Positions 1,298 through 26,302 of a DNA stretch of 57,886 bases are shown piece after piece (the stretch's first letter is position 1; every line of letters starts with the position of its first letter). The stretch is from a virus. A program made the position numbers and the translations under genes. The DNA is taken from IMG/VR virus record IMGVR_UViG_3300045973_000815, positions 1 to 57,886 of that record, one strand, 5' to 3'. The notes beneath the pieces are model-generated. The model was given only the letters and a program-made list of their open reading frames with translations. It was not told where the DNA came from and made no database searches.

Positions 1298-1620
1298 GTC
1301 GCACCTCCCTTCGCCTTGGCGACGGCTGCGCGGGCGCGTGCGATGCGCGGGCCGTGGTGGCGCATCGAAGCCTCGCGCAGACCCACGTCGCCCGGGTCGA
1401 GGCTCGCCATGAGGCTGTCGAAGTACTCGACCTCCTCCACGACGGACGCCAGCAACTCCGGCGCGGCAGCGATGAGGCGGGCGTTGGCTGCGGTTTCGAT
1501 TTTGTCGGCGACACGCACCGGCATGCCGTACGGGGGCACGTCGGCATCAGTCGTGACGGCCCACTCCTCGCCAATCGGCTGCTGCCACGCGTGCCACGGC
1601 CCTGGCGTGTGCGCGCTCAC
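1294..1620 (-). CDS. TPGPW-family phage protein (paralogue A)
   Basis: 108 residues from GTG 1620. It begins MSAHTPGPW and contains ANARLIAAAPELL near residue 50, the two signatures of a widespread but uncharacterised family of small phage proteins. The C-terminus AKAKGGAT resembles the C-terminus of the paralogue at 19662-19946 (ATAKGGAK). A second paralogue is at 15555-15857. It overlaps both neighbours by 4 bases, so it is translated within the early leftward operon. Confidence 0.8.
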   Translation of the reverse strand: MSAHTPGPWHAWQQPIGEEWAVTTDADVPPYGMPVRVADKIETAANARLIAAAPELLASVVEEVEYFDSLMASLDPGDVGLREASMRHHGPRIARARAAVAKAKGGAT

Positions 1621-1772
1621 GGCTTCACCCCGATGTCGATGGCCATGACAGCGTCACGCACGGCTCGCGCGAACGCCTCCGCCCGGTCCGCGAGGACTGC
1701 CAGCTTCAGTGACGGGTCACCGCCTGCCTTCAGCGTGCGCGCCGCTGCGTTCTGGTACTCGATGAGCGTCAT
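1617..1772 (-). CDS. Small helical protein (51 aa)
   Basis: An ATG at 1772 overlaps the stop of the ParB-like gene (ATGA), and the stop at 1617 overlaps the next GTG start. The product begins [14 protein letters not shown] and is predicted to be a helical pair (AVLADRAEAFARAVRDA). The start of this protein resembles the short N-terminal motif of phage nucleotide pyrophosphohydrolase-like proteins, but it is far too short to be an enzyme. The perfect two-sided overlap is the main evidence that it is real. Confidence 0.65.
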   Translation of the reverse strand: MTLIEYQNAAARTLKAGGDPSLKLAVLADRAEAFARAVRDAVMAIDIGVKP

Positions 1773-3445
1773 TCATTCGCCTCCTTCGGCTTCTCCAGCT
1801 TCGCCTTCACCATCTGCTCGAGGTCCAGGCCGCACACCTTGGCCACCTCGGAGGCCTCCTCTTCGAATCCGCTCCACGTCGAGCCGACCAACTGGGGCAG
1901 CAGGTTGCAGACGAGGAAGCCCAGCAACTCCTCCTTCGCCGCAGTGCCAATCCACGTCTCGACGTCCACGCCATCGTCGATGCGCAGGCTGGAGCGGTAC
2001 ACGTCCTCAAGCCCAGCCGCACGGTCCGCAGCGCGCGCGAGGATGCGCGCCCACGTCACCGTCAGGCCCTCCTTCTTCGCGCGCCCGGCAGCTGCGCGCA
2101 CCAAGTCGCCAACCACTTCGTCACGCAACTGGCGCGCATCGGTGGCGTCCTTCTGCGCGACAGGGTCCGACGTGACGGCCTTCCTGTCCCGCTTCTCGAT
2201 GGCGCTGGTGGCCCACTTCAGGTCCAGGTGCTTCGCGATGGCGTCCAGCGCGTCGCGCTCGACGTACATCTTCCGCATGCCCATCGCGGTGTCAGGCGCC
2301 ACGAAGAGCTTCGGGCGATCCTCGTCAGGCACCTTCTCCAGCAGTTGCACCCACGTACGCTTGCTCTTGTCCTCGGGCGCTGGAACATCGGCCTCGACGT
2401 ACTTGCTGCCGTAGGACAACTCGTTCCCGTGCTTGAAGAGCTTCTTGCCCGCGTCGATGGTGAGGGCCTCGGCACCCTTGGACTCTGCCTTCGTCGCCTT
2501 CTCCTCCCACGTCGCGCGCGCCTTCTGCGCGAAGCACGTCGTGTCCGTGCACCAGTCGCTGCCCGACAAGTCGTCGAAGAGGCCAGGCGTTGAGCCACTG
2601 CGCTTCGGGCAGACGGTGCATGCCCCAACGTCGGGCACCAGCATGTCGTCCTTGCGGTCGAATGGCGCGCCCTTCAGCGAGACGCAGTGCGCCTTCTGCA
2701 GGTGCTCCAGCGCGTCCCGCACGGGCATGTCGAGGATGGACTCGAGCGCCTTCGCCTGGTCCTTGTGCGAAGGCACGCGCGCCAATGCCACGGCCAGCGT
2801 CGTGGACAGGGCCCCAGTGTCGAGCGCCTTTCGTCCCTCGGCACAGAGACTGCGCAACTTCAGTCTCGAGTACACCCACGCGCGTGACTTGCCCGCCTTC
2901 GCGGCCACCTGGTCAGCGGTGTAGCCAGCCGTCTGCATCAGGGCGTCGTACCCGTCAGCCTCCTCGAGCGGCGTGAGGTCGCTGCGCTGGATGTTCTCCA
3001 CCAGCTGCACCTCAAGCACCTGCACGTCGGTGAGGTCGCGCACGTCGACAGGCACCTCCAGCAGCCCCGCCAACTTCGCGGCGCGCAGGCGTCGGTTGCC
3101 AGCCACTACCTCGTGCACCACCTTCTTGCCGTCGCTGATGGGCCGCACCAGCAGGGGCACCAGCACGCCGACTTTCTCCAGGCTGGCGGCCAACTCGTCG
3201 ATGCCGTGGAACGTCTTGCGCGGGTTGGTGTCGCTCTCGCGGAGTTCCTCAACGGCCATCGTCGCGTACGTCGACGACACCATGAATGGCTCGTTGAAGT
3301 GCTCGTCAGCCTTCGCCTTGTCTGCGCTCGTCGGGAGCCCAGCGGCCAACGCCACCGCGTCCACCAACGAGGTGATGGGCGCCGCGTCCAGTTGCACCAC
3401 GGGCTCTGCAGGTACGTCGATGAACCTTCGCTTCTTCGCGGCCAT
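1769..3445 (-). CDS. ParB/RepB/Spo0J-domain protein, large
   Basis: 558 residues. A ParB N-terminal (CTPase-type) domain spans about residues 60-165, with SDTNPRK (71-77), [15 protein letters not shown] (114-128) and [14 protein letters not shown] (150-163), followed by a helix-turn-helix at about 172-200. A long C-terminal part contains CTVCP and DWCTDTTCF cysteine clusters that could bind zinc. The AGNRRLRA motif corresponds to the CTP/phosphate-contacting GxRR box of ParB proteins. ParB proteins spread from palindromic parS sites; phage versions of this size without a ParA partner usually have unknown roles. No ParA gene was found in this window. It sits between a small gene and the Bet-type annealing protein in the early operon. 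Confidence 0.85.
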
Positions 3446-3446
3446 G

Positions 3447-3653
3447 TCAGGCCTCCTTCGCGCGACGGAAGGTGTCCTGGGTGGACGACGCCCACCAGAT
3501 CGTCAGCGGCTGTCGCACTGAGTACTTCCGCTTGGTGCTGTGTCCCTCGTTGATGAAGGTCGACAGCGGGCTGATGGCCTTCGGCATCTTTCCCATCCAG
3601 ACGCGCGCGTGCGCCCACTGCTTCCCCGTCCGATTCTTCGACTTGTTGCCCAT
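3447..3653 (-). CDS. Small basic protein of unknown function
   Basis: 68 residues starting [13 protein letters not shown], rich in lysine, arginine and tryptophan, with no Cys motif. It ends 1 base before the ParB-like gene start, so the two are coupled. No family is recognised. Confidence 0.6.
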
Positions 3654-3686
3654 GGTGCGACTCCTTCAGGATGCGAGAAAAACGAC

Positions 3687-3733
3687 CCGGCTGGTGCGCG
3701 CTCAACCGTCACGCAGATGCACGCACCAGCCGG
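3687..3733. promoter_or_regulatory. 12-bp inverted repeat in intergenic leader
   Basis: CCGGCTGGTGCG at 3687-3698 is repeated as its exact complement at 3722-3733 around a 23-base loop. It lies in the 113-base gap between two leftward genes, with no T-run after it. It could be an attenuator, an mRNA processing or stability hairpin, or an operator. Confidence 0.5.
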
Positions 3734-3766
3734 TGCCCCGAGGGCCAATCCCCCAGGGCGACAAAC

Positions 3767-4096
3767 TCAGAATGGCAAGACCGACTCCGCAGCAGGCAGC
3801 GGCTTGAAGCCCAGCGGCTTCTCAGCGCGCGCGAGGTTCTGCTTCCATCGCTCGAGCGCGTCAGCCGCCAGCGTCAGCCCGCTGATTGCGCCACCACAGC
3901 CACCCGTCGCCATGTGCGCTGGGTTGTCGACGCGCGACACCAGCCAGGTGAAGAGCGGACCGTACGGGTCCAGCGTCACGCGCACGCCGAGGAAGAAGCC
4001 GTCCGTCGTCTTCGACCACAGGACGTGCTCGGTCGCCGACTTCTCCGTGTGCCTCCAGCCCCGGAAGCTCTCGATTCCGCAGAACGGGCAACTCAC
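3767..4096 (-). CDS. Zinc-ribbon-like small protein
   Basis: Start chosen at GTG 4096, which overlaps the annealing-protein stop by 4 bases. The 109-residue product begins with CPFCGIESFRGW, a typical zinc-ribbon half, and continues with an aromatic-rich beta region and a helix ending in LERWKQNLARAE. No second CxxC is present, only a GGCGG segment. No family is recognised. Confidence 0.65.
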   Translation of the reverse strand: MSCPFCGIESFRGWRHTEKSATEHVLWSKTTDGFFLGVRVTLDPYGPLFTWLVSRVDNPAHMATGGCGGAISGLTLAADALERWKQNLARAEKPLGFKPLPAAESVLPF

Positions 4097-5142
4097 GTCG
4101 CGCCACCAATCTCGTCCATGCGCTGCCCCTCCTCCGCGCGCAGCTCCGCGAGCCACGCGGCCACCTGGGCCTTGCTCTCTGCGGACGGCGTCTTCGCCAG
4201 GCCCGCCTCGTGCTCCGCGATGGACTCGGCCAACTCGACCGCGTCCAAGCCGCTGATGGGCTTGCCCTTGTTCTTCCCGCGCTGCACGCAGGAGAACGTC
4301 ACCTCGGCGTCGATCGGCTGCGTCTCGGTGATGGGAGCGGGCGCGGTCTCGGGCAGCGCTGCGGCCTTCGCGGGCGACGGCTTCGGGGCCACCTTCGCCT
4401 GGACCTTCGCCAGCACCGCATTCGTGCGCGACTGCACTGGCTCCGTCTTGGGGGCCTCATACTCCTCTTCCTCGTCGCGGCGCATTTCGGCTTCGACGTA
4501 GATGCCTCCGAGCAGGTTGGGGTACGCGCGGCGCGACTGATCGGCACGCGCGCACTTCCGCAGTTGGCCAGCGGGGTCCGTCGCCCAGAACTTCGTGACA
4601 CTGCCATCGCGCTTCTTGCCGATGCGGCTCTCCAGCGTCAGGTACGTGATTTCGATGACGCGCCCCTCACGCTTCGCATGTGCCCAGGCGCCGAGGATCT
4701 TCATCCCTCCCTTGGCGCGGTCGGTCGGATTCCACTTGTGGGTGACGGTGCCTGCGTCCTCGTCGACGTCGAAGACATCGCCCGCGTACACGACGCCCGA
4801 CTTCATCCCACGGTAGTCAGGCTCCGCGTCCATCCTCGCGGCCATCCCCTGCTCGGACGCCATCGGCTCGTGCTTCTTCGTATTCGTCTGCGCGTCCCAG
4901 CGCTCGATCAGGTAGCACTGCTTCGTGAACGGGTCCAAGCCGGTGCGCTTCGCCCACGCGAGGAAGAACTCGAACTCCGCCTGCGTCGCACTCGGCGGCG
5001 TCACGGCCTTGCGGGCGAGGGCCACGCGCTCCTCATCCCACGTCGGCGGGTTCCACCGCGAAGGCAGAGCGCCAGTGCGCGCGTGAACGAGGCTCACCAC
5101 CTGCGCATCGACCTGCTCCACCTGCTGCGTCTTCGCTTCCAT
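4093..5142 (-). CDS. bet: Bet/RecT-type single-strand annealing protein
   Basis: 349 residues from ATG 5142. FFLAWAKRTGLDPFTKQCY near residue 78 is the characteristic N-terminal core of the Bet/RecT superfamily (gLDPf-k-y motif). Downstream are WNPTDRAKGGMKILGAWA and the ATDPAGQLRKCARADQSRRAYP region that closes the annealing core; the C-terminal third is a Pro/Ala-rich linker. Start choice: GGGAG at 5148-5152 sits 5 bases before ATG 5142 in the context CCGGGAGACG, identical to the leader of the exonuclease gene, so this start is preferred to upstream GTG 5169. Together with the adjacent exonuclease it forms a two-component recombination pair like lambda Exo/Bet. Confidence 0.9.
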   Translation of the reverse strand: MEAKTQQVEQVDAQVVSLVHARTGALPSRWNPPTWDEERVALARKAVTPPSATQAEFEFFLAWAKRTGLDPFTKQCYLIERWDAQTNTKKHEPMASEQGMAARMDAEPDYRGMKSGVVYAGDVFDVDEDAGTVTHKWNPTDRAKGGMKILGAWAHAKREGRVIEITYLTLESRIGKKRDGSVTKFWATDPAGQLRKCARADQSRRAYPNLLGGIYVEAEMRRDEEEEYEAPKTEPVQSRTNAVLAKVQAKVAPKPSPAKAAALPETAPAPITETQPIDAEVTFSCVQRGKNKGKPISGLDAVELAESIAEHEAGLAKTPSAESKAQVAAWLAELRAEEGQRMDEIGGAT

Positions 5143-5165
5143 GTCGTCTCCCGGTTGGCTCTGCA

Positions 5166-6281
5166 TCACGGCACCATCACTTTCAGTTCCTCAACTTCGC
5201 CCACGCCTGCGTCACCTGAGGACAGCTCGAGGCGCTGCCTCACTGAGTCGAGTTCCGGCACGAGCTCGCCCGCGAAGTCCTTCGACCACCGAGGCGCAAG
5301 CTTCCAGAAGCCTGGCCGCTTCTCCCGCTGGTACTTCGCCACCCACTCACTGAGTTCAACCGGGTCGATGGCGGCCTTCGCCAGCGCCTCCCAGTCGGTG
5401 CCGACGCTGGGCTTCGTCCACACGCGGCTGATGCTGCCGACGCGCGTCGACGCCAGGCCCTTGTCCGCGCCGATGAGCGTGCGCAGTTGGTTGCCCATCA
5501 GCTTCAACTCGCCGTCCAACAGCTTCTCCACCAACTTCAGTCGGCCGTACTGCGCCATGAGCGCCTCGCGCGCATCGCCGTCAGCCACTGCCTGCACGAT
5601 GCCGTTGGTCGTCGGGAAGGCACGCGAGAGAAACTCCTTGTACCGCTCCGTCGCGTCCGGAGGCGGCGGCTGGCCAGTCACGACGTGGTCCCGCCAGAAT
5701 CGCTCGGCAATCTCCAGCAACCCGAGCCAGAGCTGCTCGTTGAACGGAACGGTGTAGACGCCGAATTCCTCTCGGTCGAACAGCACCGCGACGTCCGTCA
5801 GCTTCATGCCGACAACGCCCATCTGCCACTGGGTCTGCAGGAGGTAGTACTCAGGGACGGCGTCAGTTCCAGGCTCGCCCCACTCGTGACGCATGCGCCA
5901 CGACGAGGTCTTGATCTCCACGTTCCGCACGGCGCCCGCGCACTCCGCAGGGTCAGCGATCCACGCCTTGGTGTCGCGGCGCGACTCGAAAGCAATACGG
6001 TCGGGCGTCGCGAGTGCAAGCGATTGCACCGGGTGGCGCAGCGTGCGACTCCGCACCAGGTGCAGCCCCTCGTGGCGGCGCGCGTACAGCTTGGCCACTG
6101 GCTCCTCGAGCAGGTCGCCGAGTTCCGTCGCAAGGTTTCCCTCGCGAGGTACCTGCACGCCCATCTTCTCTTCCCAGATGGCGACAGGTGAGGACCAGCG
6201 CGACAGTCCCGCCAGCACTGCAATCTCTGACGCGGTGATGCCAGTGCGCCGTTGCTCCAGCTGCTCCTTCGACAAGCTCAT
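5166..6281 (-). CDS. YqaJ-type viral exonuclease (lambda Exo-like)
   Basis: 371 residues. Motifs in order: TGITASEIAVLAGL (residues 13-26) opening the YqaJ nuclease fold, an LxxGDLLEEPVAKLYA helix, ALATPDRIAF with the metal-binding Asp, VEIKTSSW with the Glu-x-Lys catalytic pair, and YYLLQTQWQM with the conserved Gln. This is the PD-(D/E)XK exonuclease that resects double-strand ends for the annealing protein encoded immediately downstream. The RBS GGGAG lies 8 bases before ATG 6281. One of the nine dispersed palindromes (6014-6029) lies inside the gene. Confidence 0.9.
   Translation of the reverse strand: MSLSKEQLEQRRTGITASEIAVLAGLSRWSSPVAIWEEKMGVQVPREGNLATELGDLLEEPVAKLYARRHEGLHLVRSRTLRHPVQSLALATPDRIAFESRRDTKAWIADPAECAGAVRNVEIKTSSWRMRHEWGEPGTDAVPEYYLLQTQWQMGVVGMKLTDVAVLFDREEFGVYTVPFNEQLWLGLLEIAERFWRDHVVTGQPPPPDATERYKEFLSRAFPTTNGIVQAVADGDAREALMAQYGRLKLVEKLLDGELKLMGNQLRTLIGADKGLASTRVGSISRVWTKPSVGTDWEALAKAAIDPVELSEWVAKYQREKRPGFWKLAPRWSKDFAGELVPELDSVRQRLELSSGDAGVGEVEELKVMVP
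6014..6029. promoter_or_regulatory. Dispersed 16-bp palindrome, site 1
   Basis: GTGCAAGCGATTGCAC, inside the exonuclease reading frame. It matches the consensus GTGCAANCGNTTGCAC seen at eight other places. Confidence 0.75.
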
Positions 6282-6663: not shown

Positions 6664-7893
6664 ATGTCAGACCCGATTGGTAGAACTCTCCCGCTCGCAA
6701 AGTGGGCGAGCCCGGACGTCGAGGATGCCTCGGCGGAGAAGCCACTGGGTGTGGGCGTGATTTCAGTTCGTCGAGAAGTGTCTCCACGGGAGTCCGTGGA
6801 GCTTACGGAAGCGCAGTTGTCTCAACTCACTCTCTCACTGGTGGCCGCGCTCAAGCCGGTCTCCAGCGAGACGCCCCCACCGCCAGAGCTGCCGCTCTTC
6901 GGTGAGTTGGTGGCCGCATGGCTCGCGAAGGTTGAGCCGACCCGCGTCGACAAGGGCCAGGACAGGCGCCTCACTCGCCACCTGCGTTCCCTCTCGCTCG
7001 AGGACGAGTCGACCCTCACTGCCGGGATGATCGAGGACGTGTTGCACGCGCTTGCAACTTCGTCGGCGCCTGGCGTGAAGCCTGCGCTGAGCAAGTCGAC
7101 CATCAACAAGGTCCAAGGCGCTGGCCGCAAGGTCATCGACCAGGCGATGCGCGAGAAGCGCTGGCACGGGCCGAACCCCTTCAAGCTGGTCAGGCGCGCC
7201 AAGGAGACGGCGCCCAAGTACGAGTTGCTCTCGCTCGAGGAGCTGGCCCTCGTCCAGAAGCGCATCCCCGAGCCCCGCATGGGCCTGTTCCGCTGCGCGC
7301 TCCACCTCGGCATGCGGACGGGCGAGCTGCTGGCGCTCCGCAAGGAGGACGTCGACTTCAAGCGCGGCGTCGTGGTGGTGCGCCGCAGCCACGGGCGAGA
7401 CACCACGAAGACCGGCAGGGAGCGCGTCGTTCCCATCGTCCCGGCCATCGCAGGCGACCTCCTGCACGCCATCGAAGGATCGCCTGGGGATCTCGTCTTC
7501 GGCGGCGTCGGCGGCAAGCGCCAGCGCGCGGACACGAAGCTCACGCGCGTGCTGCGCACCGCGATGGTTGCGGCGGGCATCGGCGTGCAGGCCGTCACCT
7601 ACAAGTGCCGTCGTCGCGGCTGCCGACGCGTCGAGGTGGGCGGGGCCCCAGTGCTACCTGGACATCGCTGCGAGTGCGGCGCGAAGTTCTGGGCAGTGCC
7701 GGAGGTGCGCAAGGTGCGCTGGTACGACTTGCGCCACATGAGCGCGACGTTCCATCACCAGCATGACGCGGACCCCATCTGCGTCGCGCTGGCGCTCGGG
7801 CACTCCATCGCGGGCACCACTGGGCGCGTCTATACGCACCCTAGTGACGAGACGATGCGGCGAGAACTTGGCCGCTGGTTCCTTGCGCGATAA
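6664..7893 (+). CDS. int: Tyrosine-family integrase with zinc-ribbon insertion
   Basis: 409 residues. The N-terminal arm/core-binding part contains a LFGELVAAWLAKVEPTRV helix. The catalytic domain has LGMRTGELLALRKEDV (Arg at about 217), a TKTGRERVVPI strand with the beta-hairpin Lys, YDLRH (about 354-358), ALGHSIAGTTGRVYTH (His at about 380) and the nucleophilic Tyr at about 389. The first position of the HxxR box is Tyr instead of His, a natural variant. Between boxes I and II is an inserted KCRRRGC...HRCECG segment (about 314-338) that looks like a zinc ribbon. It ends 64 bases before the tRNA-like attP sequence, the usual arrangement for site-specific integration. Confidence 0.95.
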   Translation: MSDPIGRTLPLAKWASPDVEDASAEKPLGVGVISVRREVSPRESVELTEAQLSQLTLSLVAALKPVSSETPPPPELPLFGELVAAWLAKVEPTRVDKGQDRRLTRHLRSLSLEDESTLTAGMIEDVLHALATSSAPGVKPALSKSTINKVQGAGRKVIDQAMREKRWHGPNPFKLVRRAKETAPKYELLSLEELALVQKRIPEPRMGLFRCALHLGMRTGELLALRKEDVDFKRGVVVVRRSHGRDTTKTGRERVVPIVPAIAGDLLHAIEGSPGDLVFGGVGGKRQRADTKLTRVLRTAMVAAGIGVQAVTYKCRRRGCRRVEVGGAPVLPGHRCECGAKFWAVPEVRKVRWYDLRHMSATFHHQHDADPICVALALGHSIAGTTGRVYTHPSDETMRRELGRWFLAR

Positions 7894-20595: not shown

Positions 20596-21852
20596 TTATG
20601 CGCGGACCAACTCGGACTTCCGGCCCGTGAAGGCCTCCCACCGCGCGATGGTGCGCCCGACGTAGACGGGGTCGAGCTCGATGACGCGCGCCTTCCTCCC
20701 CAGGCGCTCGCAGGCCATCAGCGTGGTGCCGCTGCCGCTGAACGGGTCGAAGACCGTGTGGCCGCGCGCGGTCGAGTTGAGGAGCATGGCCTCGACCAAC
20801 TCCACGGGCTTCATCGTCGGGTGGTCATCGCTCCTCTTGGGCTTCGGGAACGAGAACACCGACACCTGCGAGTCGTCACCGTACCAGCCCTTGCCGCCCC
20901 GCCCGATGCGCCCCTCGCCAGGCTTCATCGCGTAGAGAATCGGCTCGTGCTGGAAGTGGTAGTCACTGTGCCCCAGCACCAGCGAGTCCTTGGCCCACAC
21001 GAGGTTTTGCTTGATGCGGAACCCAGCTGCGCGAATCGCATCGATGAAGATCGCGGCATGCCCACCCGCCGGGTGGGCAGCGTAGATGTGGCCGCCCGGC
21101 TTCAGCACGCGGAAGCACTGGGCGAAGGCAGCTGCGAGGAGCGGCGCCAGCTGGTCCTTCCCGTCGTTGTTCACCTTCCCCGCTGCCGACTCATAGCTGA
21201 CGCCATATGGCGGGTCCGTCCAGACGAGGTCAATTCCCCCCCCCAGCAGCACTCGTGCCACCGACTCATCCTTGGTCGAGTCCGCGCATAGGAGTGTGTG
21301 GTCTCCGAGGCGGTACATCGCGCCAGTCGGGACCGCGTCTCCATCCGGAAGCGAGTCAATCTCCGCGAGGCCTTCAGCCGGCTTCGCCAACTCGTTCAGG
21401 ATTCGATCAACGTCGTCCCCATCGAACCCGGTGCCCAGCAGCGCGTCAGGCCCACCATCCGAAGCGATGGACACCAGCAACTGGTTCAACGCGTCGTCGT
21501 CCCACCCGCCGACCTCGACGAGCCGGTTGGACGCGACCAGGTAGGCCTTCGCGTCGGCGTCGTCCTTCGATGCCCACCCGTGGAGGACGGGCACCAGCCA
21601 CTCGCCATCGGCATCCTGCTTCAGGCCCTTCGGCAACCCAGCGCCGTCCTTCTTGAGGGCCGCCAGCGCCTCGATGCGGCCGTGCCCTGCCACCAGCTTC
21701 CCGGTGCGCTCGTCGACCGCCGGGAGTTCGACGAAGCCCCGCTTGCGGATGCTGGTGACGATCTCCCCCAGGTCGTGCTGCTTCGGATTCACGTCAGCGC
21801 GTCGGACGTCAGCCAGGCGCGTGTACTCAATGCGGCGTGGGTCATCGGTCAT
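20596..21852 (-). CDS. ParB-N domain fused to DNA methyltransferase
   Basis: 418 residues from ATG 21852; an in-frame GTG at 21888 lies in palindrome site 4. Residues about 8-100 are a ParB-like nuclease/CTPase domain (VRRADVNPKQHDL, LVAGHGRIEALAAL). Residues about 160-415 are an N6-adenine/N4-cytosine methyltransferase: LVWTDPPYGVSY (catalytic DPPY), HPTMKPVELVEAML and FDPFSGSGTTLMACERLGR (AdoMet pocket), in beta-class order. Such fusions are frequent on phages and protect or mark DNA; no matching restriction gene was found. It faces the terminase across a shared control region. Confidence 0.9.
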   Translation of the reverse strand: MTDDPRRIEYTRLADVRRADVNPKQHDLGEIVTSIRKRGFVELPAVDERTGKLVAGHGRIEALAALKKDGAGLPKGLKQDADGEWLVPVLHGWASKDDADAKAYLVASNRLVEVGGWDDDALNQLLVSIASDGGPDALLGTGFDGDDVDRILNELAKPAEGLAEIDSLPDGDAVPTGAMYRLGDHTLLCADSTKDESVARVLLGGGIDLVWTDPPYGVSYESAAGKVNNDGKDQLAPLLAAAFAQCFRVLKPGGHIYAAHPAGGHAAIFIDAIRAAGFRIKQNLVWAKDSLVLGHSDYHFQHEPILYAMKPGEGRIGRGGKGWYGDDSQVSVFSFPKPKRSDDHPTMKPVELVEAMLLNSTARGHTVFDPFSGSGTTLMACERLGRKARVIELDPVYVGRTIARWEAFTGRKSELVRA

Positions 21853-21872
21853 GGCGGGCACCGTACCGAGGA

Positions 21873-21888
21873 GTGCACGCGTTTGCAC
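21873..21888. promoter_or_regulatory. Dispersed 16-bp palindrome, site 4
   Basis: GTGCACGCGTTTGCAC, identical to site 3, in the 55-base gap between the leftward methyltransferase and the rightward terminase operon, so it could control both. Confidence 0.8.
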
Positions 21889-21907: not shown

Positions 21908-22462
21908 ATGCCTGCAGGACGACCACCGAAGTTGACGCCTCAACTCCAGAAGGCCTTTTGCGCGCAGCTGGTGAGCGGCTGCACGTACGAGACGGCCGCT
22001 GCCGCCATTGAGGTCAGCAAGAGCGCCATCACTCAGTGGATGGCCAAAGGACGCACGCAAGAGCGCGGAAAATATGCTGATTTTCTGCGCGCAGTCGAAA
22101 AGGCCCGTGCCGAAGTAGTTCAGCGGTTGCTGGCGCGCGCGCAGAAGCGAGTCATGTCGCGAAAGGAGGGCGGCATCGATGCAGACCCGCTGCCCTTGCT
22201 GGCCATCCTCGATCGCTCGTATGCCCCACAAGTTCGCATTCAGGTGGCGACGGAGTTGAGTGCGACGTTGGACCGACTGGAAGCGGAGTTCGCGAATGAG
22301 CCTGAGATCTACGAGCGCATCCTCGCCGCCATCGCTGAAGAGACTGGCCCGGGAGCGGTTGCGCCAGCGTCGCGAGCGCGCACTCACGAAGACGCTCGAG
22401 GTGGTGCGGCCGTGGGCGCCAGAGACGCCGTCGGAGCGACAGAGGACCTTCCTCAGCCTTGA
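21908..22462 (+). CDS. terS: Terminase small subunit
   Basis: 184 residues from ATG 21908, behind CGGAGGC. An N-terminal AGRPPKLTPQLQ segment leads to a helix-turn-helix (SGCTYETAAAAIEVSKSAITQWMAKG), then an oligomerisation helix (FLRAVEKARAEVVQRLLARAQK). This is the standard organisation of small terminases that recognise phage DNA and present it to the large subunit. The C-terminus overlaps the terL frame by 167 bases, so its exact end or the terL start may differ. Confidence 0.8.
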   Translation: MPAGRPPKLTPQLQKAFCAQLVSGCTYETAAAAIEVSKSAITQWMAKGRTQERGKYADFLRAVEKARAEVVQRLLARAQKRVMSRKEGGIDADPLPLLAILDRSYAPQVRIQVATELSATLDRLEAEFANEPEIYERILAAIAEETGPGAVAPASRARTHEDARGGAAVGARDAVGATEDLPQP

Positions 22463-24737
22463 CGCGGAGGAGGTCTTCTTCGGCGGCGCAGCTGGTGGCG
22501 GCAAGTCGAGCGCGCTGTTGCTGGCTGCACTGCAGTACGTCGACGTGCCTGGGTACAGCGCGGGCCTCTTCCGACTGACGAAGTCGGACATGCTGAAGCC
22601 CGACGCGATTCTGGCGCGAGCCAACGCGTGGTTCTCTGGGACGCGCGCGTGGTGGGACGCGGCAGAGCACGCGTGGAAGTTTCCGACAAAGGGCGCGCCT
22701 GCCACCATCCACTTTGGGTACGCCACGTCGCTGGCGGAAGTGACGAAGCGCTACCAGGGCGCGGCCTTCCAATTTTGCGTGGCTACTGGAACGCCGGTGT
22801 TGATGGCGGACAGGACGTGGAAGGCGATCGAGTCCATTGCAGTCGGAGAGTTCGTCTCGACTCTTGAAGGACCTCGACGAGTCCAGCAGTCCTATGCGCT
22901 TGGGGTGAAGCCCGTCGTGCGCGTCACGGGCCCAGTTGGGTCATCGACGGTGAGCGCATCGCACAGGCTTCTTTGTACGAGCGGTGACTGGGCGTCCCCT
23001 TTGGACCTGCGACCCATTGAATCGAGTTCCGCACGCAGCACTCATGAATCGCCCACGCACTCATGCCGAGTACCAGCCCAGATTCCTCCTGGGTCATCGA
23101 TGGGTCTGCCGCCAGTTGGCGAATCTTGGCGAGCACATCGGCCGGAACCTCAGCACCAGGACTGCGACGCTTCTTCAGCAGGTGCTCGAACCGATTCCGA
23201 AGCGTCATGTGGTGAACACCAAGAAACTTCGCTGCCTGAAGCGTGGTTCGCCCATCTAGAGCTCTTCGGACCTGCTCTTCGGTCAGCGGCACAGCGCAGT
23301 TGCGACGAGTATCATCGGCATGCTCTCGCCCGTGGTCCGATAGGGAAGCAAGCAACTCGAGATTCGCAGGGCGGTTGTTTCTGCGATTGCGGTTGCGGTG
23401 ATGAACTATCTCGTGAGGCTCCAGTAGCCGCCCAATCAAGCACTCCATCACCAGCCGATGTTGCTTCACGCCTCCCCATGCATTCGCCATCGGGTGATCC
23501 GGCGAGTACTCAATCACGTACCCGCCAGGGCCAATGCACGCCGATCCACCCCTACACGTCCAGGGAACTCCTGTGCTGCGAGGAGCACCACTCGCACGTC
23601 TGCGAAATGGTCCCAGCGGGTGAGGTGGAAGTCTTCGATCTACGGGTCGAAGGGGCGTCGCATTACGTGACATGGGGAGGGTTCATATCATCCAACTGTG
23701 GCATCGATGAGGTTGGCAGTTGGCAGGAGGCGCCCTACCGCTTCCTCTTCTCGCGACTGCGCCGGCCGCAGGGCATGCCCGTGCCGGTGCGCATGCGTTC
23801 CTCGGGCAACCCGGGCGGTGCAGGGCACCAGTGGGTGAAGCGGCGCTTCGTCGAGTACGCCAAACACGTCGATGCGGGTACGGACGCGCGCGAAGACATC
23901 AAGGCCGCACGTTTCCAGAGGCGGCCGCTACCGGAGCCACCAGTCTACGCTTCGGCGCCCTCGGCGGAGGCTGCAGACGCAGCGCGCTCCATCAACCGCG
24001 AGGCCCAACCCTCATACTTCGTCCCCAGCTTCAAGGAGGACAACGTCGGCCTCGACGTCGACGCGTACGCGATGCAGTTGGCGCGGCTGGACCCCGTCAC
24101 GCGCAAGCAGCTGGACGAAGGCGACTGGGACGCCGCGCACGGCGGCAACTACTTCCAGGCGGGGTGGTTCTCCAACTCCATCGTCGACGTGCCACCCACG
24201 GGGCTGCGCTGGGTGCGTAGCTGGGACTTCGCGGCGACTGAGGAGGAGCCAGGGAAGGACCCCGACTGGACGGTGGGCGCGAAGTGCGCGGTCGAGCGCC
24301 TGGCCGACGGAGAGAAGCGCTTCTGGGTTGCGGACATCGTGCGCTTCCGCAAGGAGCCCGGCGCCACGGAGCGCGAGGTGAAGACGACGGCCGTCCTCGA
24401 TGGGAAGCGCGTCACGGTGTTGATGGAGCAAGAGCCAGGCAGCGCGGGCAAGACGGTGGTGCACGGCATCAAGACGCGCGTCCTCTTCGGGTGGAGCGTG
24501 ACGGGCATGCGCAAGACGGGGCCAAAGGAGTCCTACTGGAAGCCCCTCGCGGCGCCGGCCGAGGCGGGCAACGTGTGCCTCGTGCGCGGGGCTTGGAATG
24601 AGGACTTCATTCGGGAACTGAAGGACCTCCCAGGGGCGCATGATGACCAGGCGGACGCCGTCGCGCAGGCCTTCGCGCACCTCACCGATGAGAAGGCGGC
24701 ACAAGTCGACCGACTGCGGGCGACAGCGAAACTCTGA
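22296..24737 (+). CDS. terL: Terminase large subunit, intein-interrupted
   Basis: 813-residue precursor from ATG 22296 (GTG 22400 is possible); 506 residues after splicing. The ATPase half has Walker A FFGGAAGGGKSSAL and, split by the intein, the Walker B/DE region FQF//CGIDEVGSW. The C-terminal RNase H-like nuclease has RSWDFAATEEEPG with the first catalytic Asp and AHDDQADAVAQAF near the end. The intein (22776-23696) must be removed to rebuild the ATPase site. The motor cuts and pumps DNA into the prohead. Confidence 0.93.
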   Translation: MSLRSTSASSPPSLKRLARERLRQRRERALTKTLEVVRPWAPETPSERQRTFLSLDAEEVFFGGAAGGGKSSALLLAALQYVDVPGYSAGLFRLTKSDMLKPDAILARANAWFSGTRAWWDAAEHAWKFPTKGAPATIHFGYATSLAEVTKRYQGAAFQFCVATGTPVLMADRTWKAIESIAVGEFVSTLEGPRRVQQSYALGVKPVVRVTGPVGSSTVSASHRLLCTSGDWASPLDLRPIESSSARSTHESPTHSCRVPAQIPPGSSMGLPPVGESWRAHRPEPQHQDCDASSAGARTDSEASCGEHQETSLPEAWFAHLELFGPALRSAAQRSCDEYHRHALARGPIGKQATRDSQGGCFCDCGCGDELSREAPVAAQSSTPSPADVASRLPMHSPSGDPASTQSRTRQGQCTPIHPYTSRELLCCEEHHSHVCEMVPAGEVEVFDLRVEGASHYVTWGGFISSNCGIDEVGSWQEAPYRFLFSRLRRPQGMPVPVRMRSSGNPGGAGHQWVKRRFVEYAKHVDAGTDAREDIKAARFQRRPLPEPPVYASAPSAEAADAARSINREAQPSYFVPSFKEDNVGLDVDAYAMQLARLDPVTRKQLDEGDWDAAHGGNYFQAGWFSNSIVDVPPTGLRWVRSWDFAATEEEPGKDPDWTVGAKCAVERLADGEKRFWVADIVRFRKEPGATEREVKTTAVLDGKRVTVLMEQEPGSAGKTVVHGIKTRVLFGWSVTGMRKTGPKESYWKPLAAPAEAGNVCLVRGAWNEDFIRELKDLPGAHDDQADAVAQAFAHLTDEKAAQVDRLRATAKL
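22776..23696 (+). mobile_element. Intein in terminase large subunit (307 aa)
   Basis: It begins with Cys1 in CVATGTPVLMADRTWKAI (block A), has VSASHRLLC (block B His) at about residue 65, and ends VFDLRVEGASHYV (block F) then GGFISSN followed by Cys+1 of the extein. The last residue is Asn as required, but the usual penultimate His is Ser. The insertion point is directly before the ATPase IDE motif. Between about 23000 and 23600 the sense translation is Ser/Arg/Pro-rich with no endonuclease motif, because an HNH gene occupies the other strand. Confidence 0.92.
22924..23673 (-). CDS. HNH homing endonuclease, antisense inside the intein
   Basis: 249 residues read opposite to terL. Conserved HNH core at about residues 55-115: SPDHPMAN, KQHRLVMECLIGRLL, EIVHHRNRNRRNNRPANLELL and DHGREHA, the H...HH...N pattern of bbalpha-metal nucleases. 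Two C-terminal helix-turn-helix segments follow (TLQAAKFLGVHHMTLRNRFEHLL and SGLVLGMSAWAIHECCVRNSIQW), typical DNA-recognition parts of homing enzymes. The start is uncertain: ATG 23673 has no ribosome site. The gene lies wholly within the intein. Confidence 0.85.
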   Translation of the reverse strand: MSRNATPLRPVDRRLPPHPLGPFRRRASGAPRSTGVPWTCRGGSACIGPGGYVIEYSPDHPMANAWGGVKQHRLVMECLIGRLLEPHEIVHHRNRNRRNNRPANLELLASLSDHGREHADDTRRNCAVPLTEEQVRRALDGRTTLQAAKFLGVHHMTLRNRFEHLLKKRRSPGAEVPADVLAKIRQLAADPSMTQEESGLVLGMSAWAIHECCVRNSIQWVAGPKGTPSHRSYKEACAMRSPSMTQLGP

Positions 24738-24754
24738 CGCTGTACCTTGTCGGC

Positions 24755-26302
24755 ATGGCGAAGAAGAGGAAGTCCGCGACGCGCACCGACGGCTGGAAGA
24801 ACATCTACACGGGCCTTGGGGGCTCGAGGGACAAGCGCCTCGGCGGAAGCTTCACCTCCGACCGCCTGGACGAGACGACGTGCGAGGATCTCTGGCTCGG
24901 TGACGACATCTGCGCGCGCATCATCGAGGCGCAGCCAGAGGCCGAGTTGCGCCAGGGCTTCGAGTTGGTTGTCTCCGACGCCAGCCCCTCGCCCAAGCCT
25001 GGGCCTCCAGACAGGACGGACAAGGGCGAGGACAAGTCCATCAAGGCGCCTGCACCAGTCGCCGAAGAGGCGGGCGACATGGGCGAGGGCGAAGGCGCGG
25101 AGCTCGCCCAGAAGCTGATGGCCTACTTCGACGACAGAGACGCCACCGCATGCCTTCAGCAGGCGCGGCAGTTCGGGCGCGCGTATGGAGGCGGGGCCAT
25201 CCTCCTCGGTGCGCAGGATGGGCAGTCATTCGATCAGCCGCTGAATGAGGCCGCCATCAAAACGTGCCCCTGGCTGAAGGTGTTGCGCCCGCGCGAGTGC
25301 ATCCCCTCGCGGTACTACCGCACGCCGAAGTCTCCGAAGTTCGGCGAGGTGTCGCACTACCGCGTGCACCGCGACACGCTGGGCGGTGGCTCCTCCGAGG
25401 TGCTCGAGGTGCACGAGTCCCGCCTCATCCCCTTCTATGGCGTCGTCGTTTCGACTCGTCAGCGCGCCGCACGCAACAGCTGGGGCGACTCGGTGCTGGT
25501 GCGCGTCGTCGAAAAGGTGTCGGACTTCCAGGCATCCTTTCAGGCGGCTGGCGTGCTGGTGCAGGACTTCGCGCAGGCCGTCTTCAAGATGGCGGGGCTT
25601 GCCGAGATGCTGGCTCAGGGTGACGACGGCGACGCCATTGTCACCGCGCGCGCCCAATCCATCGACATGTCGCGCAGCGTCGCGCGTGCCCTCCTCATCG
25701 ACAAGGACGAGGAATTCAAGCGCGAGGCCACGCCAGTCTCTGGCCTGCCTGAGTTGCTGGATCGCCTGTGCAACCGCCTGGCAGCGGCCGCACGCATGCC
25801 CGTCACGGTGATGATGGGCCAGTCGCCCGCAGGATTCAACGCGACGGGCAGCGCCGACATCCGCAACTGGTACGACCAAATCGCAGGCGACAGGACGCGC
25901 CAGTTGCTGCCGCGCCACAACCGCCTCCTTCGCATCCTGATGCTGGCGGCAGACTCACCCACGCGCGGGCGAGAGCCAAAGCGCTGGAGCATCAAGTACC
26001 CTCCCCTCTGGCAGATGACGGAGGCAGAGCAAGCCGAGCTGCGCGGCAAGGTGGCCACCGCTGACGTCGCGTACATCAACGCGGGCGTCCTGCTGCCTGA
26101 GGAGGTAGCTGTCGCTCGCTTCGGTGGTGACGCCTGGACGATGGAGACGCAGTTGGACACGAAGGCGCGCGCCGTCGCGGAGAAGGAAGCGAAGCAGGCC
26201 CAGCAGGCGATGGAGGCGCAGATGCAGCAGGCGCTCGTCGACCCGAACGAGCCTGTGGACCCGAAGGCCCCGCCTGTGCCCACCAAGGAGCCGACGAAGT
26301 GA
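24755..26302 (+). CDS. Portal protein
   Basis: 515 residues from ATG 24755. GGSFTSDRLDETTCEDLWLGDDICARIIEAQPE at the start, FGRAYGGGAILLGAQD in the middle, and ARMPVTVMMGQSPAGFNATGSADIRNWYDQI are conserved landmarks of DUF1073-type phage portals. It follows the terminase as in most tailed phages. The start has no Shine-Dalgarno; TACCTT (24743-24748) ends 6 bases before ATG, suggesting a leaderless transcript. Confidence 0.88.
   Translation: MAKKRKSATRTDGWKNIYTGLGGSRDKRLGGSFTSDRLDETTCEDLWLGDDICARIIEAQPEAELRQGFELVVSDASPSPKPGPPDRTDKGEDKSIKAPAPVAEEAGDMGEGEGAELAQKLMAYFDDRDATACLQQARQFGRAYGGGAILLGAQDGQSFDQPLNEAAIKTCPWLKVLRPRECIPSRYYRTPKSPKFGEVSHYRVHRDTLGGGSSEVLEVHESRLIPFYGVVVSTRQRAARNSWGDSVLVRVVEKVSDFQASFQAAGVLVQDFAQAVFKMAGLAEMLAQGDDGDAIVTARAQSIDMSRSVARALLIDKDEEFKREATPVSGLPELLDRLCNRLAAAARMPVTVMMGQSPAGFNATGSADIRNWYDQIAGDRTRQLLPRHNRLLRILMLAADSPTRGREPKRWSIKYPPLWQMTEAEQAELRGKVATADVAYINAGVLLPEEVAVARFGGDAWTMETQLDTKARAVAEKEAKQAQQAMEAQMQQALVDPNEPVDPKAPPVPTKEPTK

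Follow-up and report, generated by a model that had tools for sequence, protein, structure and literature searches.

Canonical large inteins carry an in-frame homing endonuclease, which is of the LAGLIDADG type or, as in some GyrB inteins, of the HNH type. HNH genes are common in phage introns, where HNH_3 is the typical form, and in nuclear rDNA group I introns the endonuclease gene can lie on the opposite strand with its own promoter. Dassa et al. reportedly described, in 2009, fractured genes in which split inteins occur together with free-standing endonuclease genes. The nearest published case that we found is the ShiLan domain, an insertion in a phage methylase in which an HNH is hidden on the same strand in another frame, with no splicing domain (Arsenault, Gosselin and Gogarten 2025, PMC11855218). 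In the Pacc40 gp60 insertion, the location of the HNH is stated as 'an alternate ORF' (PMC11855218), and a preprint cited there, in which the same authors' group treats the 'non-canonical architecture' of inteins from actinobacteriophages, may overlap with the present observations. We found no account in the accessible literature of an intein with an endonuclease gene on its antisense strand; a related case is possible in the Gosselin et al. 2025 preprint, Dassa 2009, and Gorbalenya 1998.

The window, i.e., the whole stretch of DNA analysed here, is the 57,886-base viral contig of the IMG/VR virus record IMGVR_UViG_3300045973_000815. The coordinates given in the initial annotation proved correct, and the features are as follows:

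22260..24737, plus strand: terL (terminase large subunit) ORF, a single open frame of 825 aa interrupted by the intein; the true start may lie inside
to 22775 and from 23697, plus strand: N-extein and C-extein of terL, respectively
22776..23696, plus strand: intein of 307 aa, Cys1 to Asn307, with block B His63 and Cys as the +1 residue
22776..23045, plus strand: N-terminal splicing region, blocks A and B, intein residues 1-90, with the invariant C1 and H63 and a predicted fold
23046..23585, plus strand: dual-coded middle, open, without a domain and predicted to be disordered
23586..23696, plus strand: C-terminal splicing region, blocks F and G, residues 271-307, pLDDT 75-92, TIGR01443 at threshold
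22924..23673, minus strand: antisense HNH endonuclease gene, 249 aa, identified by HNH_3 and PHROG homology
23314..23523, minus strand: HNH catalytic core, residues 51-120, pLDDT 93-98, with I-HmuI as the top Foldseek match
23020..23280, minus strand: predicted helical tail, residues 132-218, probably a helix-turn-helix (HTH) DNA-binding region, from predicted secondary structure

We consider it highly probable that the insert is a mobile intein and that its homing endonuclease has a gene of its own on the opposite strand, nested between the splicing blocks. Like canonical large inteins, it has blocks A, B, F, and G, a nuclease between B and F, and an insertion at a conserved ATPase motif; unlike them, it does not include the nuclease in its own polypeptide, since the enzyme is encoded independently on the other strand, by a gene that in many relatives has expression signals to itself. 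It shares with the fractured genes a separate endonuclease gene between the intein halves, but the host gene and intein are continuous in the window and in almost all relatives, and the endonuclease is antisense. As in the nuclear rDNA group I introns, an antisense homing endonuclease gene lies inside a self-splicing element; however, the intron is an RNA element with no second frame to stay open, whereas the intein needs both frames open. In common with ShiLan and Pacc40 gp60 are the insertion in a phage gene, the open host frame, the HNH in another frame, and a homing-type presence/absence pattern, but the HNH of ShiLan is on the same strand with no intein or intron splicing domain, whereas that of the window is antisense within a full Hint domain.

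A first search with the window HNH matched another terL of the same layout, interrupted at the P-loop (L001), and the L001 intein led on to L087 and L090. In an HNH-driven scan, with a profile built from four antisense HNHs, 66 of the 80 best viral relatives were found on the antisense strand of a continuous ORF that has both ends of an intein, and 6 of 24 bacterial contigs had the antisense-in-intein layout. An intein-driven scan was run against circularity, yet it was seeded with inteins of the same class, so its outcome, an antisense HNH_3 in 76 of 80 loci, describes one Hint subfamily and not all inteins; three of the other loci were mini-inteins and the remaining one was L275. In total, 154 phage and bacterial loci, a count that includes some repeat fetches of one contig, hold 100 distinct HNH proteins in 87 clusters at 90% identity, all in one phase, with HNH codon position 1 opposite host position 1 and positions 2 and 3 opposite host positions 3 and 2. 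Pfam recognised HNH_3 in 55/55 of the relatives and Intein_splicing in 50/53. Among 47 host ORFs, Terminase_6N was found in 23 and Terminase_3 in 11, and the rest include helicases and SbcC-like ATPases. The usual insertion site is the TerL P-loop, between GxxG and SGKT, with an intein running C...HN; the window copy differs from most loci in being divergent and inserted before Walker B. None of the surveyed loci showed a member of this HNH family in frame within an intein, and no related intein of the family has a sense-strand HNH through its middle. HNH relatives outside inteins (L003, L115, L124, L133-L140, and isolates such as Thibault, GAL1, and phiH) were used as controls. The antisense layout is thus widespread, and it has been little noticed as a means by which inteins carry the gene for their own mobility.

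Other arrangements were observed beside this class. L275 carries, at 2750-3337 on the minus strand, an antisense PF01844 HNH (zinc-finger-like) in another phase, although the surrounding intein belongs to the same family; the antisense layout apparently arose there independently. In L090 (IMGVR_UViG_3300032069_000007), a second intein in the same helicase-like ORF (4817-5755, plus strand) contains a LAGLIDADG_2 gene (Pfam E 2e-28) that shares the strand of the host ORF but uses another frame, and the host frame is open. This gene is a sense, out-of-frame counterpart of the antisense HNH layout, and a search for its relatives returned only itself. A LAGLIDADG_3 match, probably from a second intein, also occurs in one of the 47 host ORFs; in L122, a further motif resembling a C-block lies near residue 1228.

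Resolution in the HNH tree is poor, and a single origin of the antisense class is neither shown nor rejected (p-AU 0.095). Inheritance as a unit is favoured by the uniform phase and by the correlation between HNH and intein distances (Mantel r 0.29-0.36), but part of this correlation is shared host descent, since the HNH distances also correlate with those of the extein (0.45).

The minus-strand ORF had been described as a coherent 249-residue HNH protein, and the homology bears this out: the protein matches HNH_3 (Pfam, E 4e-9) and the PHROG HNH family (E 4e-18), and the best solved structure for its core in Foldseek is that of I-HmuI (1u3e, probability 0.90, with a weak E of 0.26), an endonuclease that is itself intron-encoded. 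The two HTH domains proposed at the same time stood in part, as helices are predicted at residues 132-168 and 178-218, but an HTH was not firmly identified (best match HTH_23, E 0.035). The closest relative of the window HNH is distant (47% identity over 96 columns at best) and its branch is long; it may be an independent or early-diverging case, its position in the tree being poorly resolved.

In nearly all pairs of relatives, the identity of the HNH proteins exceeds that of the host frame for the same DNA (66% vs 28% for L001/L087 and 72% vs 46% for L101/L113), and the substitutions between relatives are concentrated at the third positions of the HNH codons, which are the second positions of the host codons. 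The better conservation of the HNH and the accumulation of changes at its position 3 identify it as a protein under purifying selection; the minus frame is conserved as protein. Since the HNH frame is the conserved one, the host-frame middle is a stop-free linker.

We scanned 95 non-redundant loci for expression signals ahead of the first HNH ATG, using a rotation null. A -10 hexamer exactly 6 nt ahead of the ATG occurs in 20 of them (null mean 1.8, max 6), a spacing that sets the start of transcription at the ATG or directly beside it and implies a leaderless message, as exemplified by TTGACA-18-TAGAAT-6-ATG in L096. A Shine-Dalgarno sequence precedes the ATG in another 20 (4.5 expected); the two sets are disjoint, with no locus having both, and neither signal was found in 55 loci, the window included. 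Relative to the intein, these signals are in antisense orientation and lie immediately upstream of block F. In the cultured Pseudoalteromonas phage PHS3, TTGACA-17-GATAAT followed by AAGGGG was read from the sequence. The initial annotation had supposed terL expression to stay unaffected by the HNH gene; antisense transcription could interfere with terL.

The alternative that survives best is that the window minus ORF is a degenerate remnant of an HNH once inserted in a mini-intein, with only the intein still functional. At ATG 23673, the only early start codon, no clear Shine-Dalgarno and no sigma70 promoter were recognised, and the search for a sigma70 promoter in the window itself ended without a candidate; the long branch and the replacement of G and D by R and N in the usual HNG..DNR stretch also fit such decay. 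However, the window HNH keeps all 15 columns that are invariant among 55 relatives, runs through 249 codons with no stop or frameshift, and has a core predicted with pLDDT 93-98, and purifying selection on the HNH frame is clear in the relatives. Hence we regard a remnant as unlikely and an intact endonuclease gene as the better reading.

A fractured gene with a natural split intein, in which a free-standing endonuclease gene lies between separate halves, is much less probable still. Exactly this layout is found at L145 (2796-4763), where an AAA ATPase N-gene is followed by an antisense HNH and by a C-gene that starts from a GAGG...ATG of its own and includes a short C-intein, but the host frame is continuous in the window and across the 154 loci, and L145 looks like a derivative. 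Its natural split intein is likely a further step from the continuous form.

The plus strand of the insert had been proposed to hold splicing blocks with Cys1 and Asn307, and this is well supported. C1, H63, and N307 are among the few fully invariant columns in the alignment of the window intein with 52 related inteins (n = 53). On its own, the window splicing domain gives Pfam matches below threshold (Hom_end_hint, E 1.5e-4), and TIGR01443 (intein_Cterm) scores 15.6 bits on the terL ORF against a cut-off of 15.6. A profile of its relatives, in comparison, matches solved mini-inteins with E 5e-25, and Foldseek pairs the model of the window intein with the DnaB and RecA mini-inteins at probability 1.0 and E 1e-3. 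In 10-residue blocks, the mean pLDDT is 56-93 over residues 1-90, with a peak of 82-93 at residues 21-80, and falls to 31-55 over residues 91-271, i.e., the plus-frame middle, which is disordered in the model. As had been noted, this middle is a single open frame in which no Pfam, NCBIfam, or PHROG domain and no in-frame endonuclease domain was found. The penultimate residue is Ser306 instead of the His usual in relatives; a penultimate His is not strictly required in known inteins and is thus not a defining feature. The insert has the residues and, in the model, the Hint fold of a class 1 intein and is predicted to splice. The exteins match PHROG 979 (E 7e-79) and Terminase_6C (E 9e-11), and the insertion point is directly ahead of Walker B, between YQGAAFQF and CGIDEVGSW.

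This evidence also bears on the possibility that the insert is a group I or group II intron, removed by RNA splicing, with an HNH gene. The abundance of HNH genes, typically HNH_3, in phage introns speaks for an intron, but the host frame is open through the insert, the intein blocks are present, Intein_splicing is recognised in the great majority of relatives, the predicted fold matches inteins, and a search for catalytic intron RNA gave no Rfam match up to E 1 within window positions 22200-24800. We therefore hold an intron to be extremely improbable.

The proposal that both strands are constrained to stay open was examined by recoding: the HNH protein was kept fixed, synonymous codons were redrawn from the codon usage of the extein, and the stops in the plus frame were counted. 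For the window, 4.4 plus-frame stops are expected, and the frame stays open in about 0.7% of draws (P(open) 0.007), or in 0 of 400 when the codons are permuted. Across 72 loci, a mean of 6.3 stops is expected, and most loci have P<0.05. As an open plus frame is rare under synonymous recoding, the host frame is kept open by selection, in agreement with the proposal. Long antisense ORFs are common in GC-rich genomes and many exist in the window, but a chance ORF without coding meaning is ruled out for the class by homology, the recoding test, and the codon-position test, and, with the same layout in one phase at all 154 loci including AT-rich ones (GC3 0.32-0.5), it is practically negligible for the window too.

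Intein-free alleles were sought, as the initial annotation had suggested, and were found in distant relatives of the window terL and in close relatives of other cases. All 80 distant relatives of the window terL are uninterrupted, with an empty site between YQGLAFSW and IGFDELTQW. No relatives of the window intein at the same insertion site were found; the CcrColossus and Brevundimonas phage terL inteins, considered as such, have another site and an in-frame middle and were rejected. Presence and absence among close relatives were seen at other loci, the window copy having no close relative. In the L158-L168 terL group, 80 related contigs have a contiguous intein-free site, the closest with 94-98% DNA identity to intein-bearing ones. 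L168 and the intein-free L295 differ at 6 of the 3,481 positions that follow the site, with three of these differences falling in the +1 codon, but they differ repeatedly upstream. The +1 codon is TCR (Ser) in 7/7 of the intein-bearing alleles printed and AGY in the intein-free ones printed. This pattern resembles the trace expected from one-sided exchange or co-conversion in homing, and the upstream divergence could come from unrelated recombination; the pair shows a recent event that may be either gain or loss of the intein. The Ymer-group Pectobacterium phages carry an antisense-HNH intein. Lower-identity matches came from approximately 97 related phages, including those of Klebsiella and Escherichia, and the insert is missing in those listed with flank matches on both sides.

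The reading of the insert as a mini-intein colonised by an antisense endonuclease gene gains support from L256, a 147-residue mini-intein. The terL that holds it is closely related to those of L226, L232, and L238, and their inteins share its insertion site. The L256 splicing domain is very similar to those of the three, and the antisense segment of about 196 codons is absent.

For the window copy above all, we infer splicing, HNH expression, cleavage, and homing along the following lines. The plus strand would give a TerL precursor containing the Hint splicing domain and a long disordered linker, which would be the HNH gene read backwards, selected only for the absence of stops and for tolerance by splicing. 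The minus strand, with its own promoter in many relatives, would give an HNH_3 protein with DNA-binding helices. In terL alleles that lack the intein, this protein would make a cut or a nick at the conserved ATPase motif, and repair would then copy the intein and the antisense gene as one unit.

On the comparison of loci, antisense-HNH inteins probably constitute a large, old, and coherent mobile class in which the nuclease is transcribed independently, often as a leaderless message, from a promoter in the intein C-terminal region, and which offers a route to mini-inteins and split inteins. A host-frame middle that is a stop-free linker makes this route a ready one, by loss of the HNH in the former case and by a stop and a new start in the latter, and the intermediates between large, mini-, and split inteins are testable. 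The standard picture of an intein nuclease, fused in frame and made with the host protein, is changed accordingly, as an antisense nuclease can be made at another time and without the host gene. In addition, the loci form an extensive natural collection of genes that overlap in a single fixed phase under opposite demands, useful for the study of overlap evolution, and a source of inteins with a disordered linker middle that could be cut or replaced.

The layout also explains misannotation. In PHS3 (L195, KX912252), terL is annotated as truncated, without the ATP-binding site/P-loop, because the antisense HNH was called instead; read through, it is continuous with the intein at 1697-3820 on the minus strand. 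In the cultured Pectobacterium phage Ymer (L194, OP748252), the annotation lists terL with its intein (1619-3931, minus strand) as a hypothetical protein and omits the antisense HNH (2962-3684, plus strand). The window phage looks temperate from its ParB-like protein (1769-3445, minus strand), YqaJ recombinase (5166-6281, minus strand), and tyrosine integrase (6664-7893, plus strand). The antisense HNH is followed, approximately 1 kb downstream, by an N6/N4 DNA methylase gene in the same orientation (20596-21888, minus strand), and it is possible that the two are on one shared minus-strand transcript.
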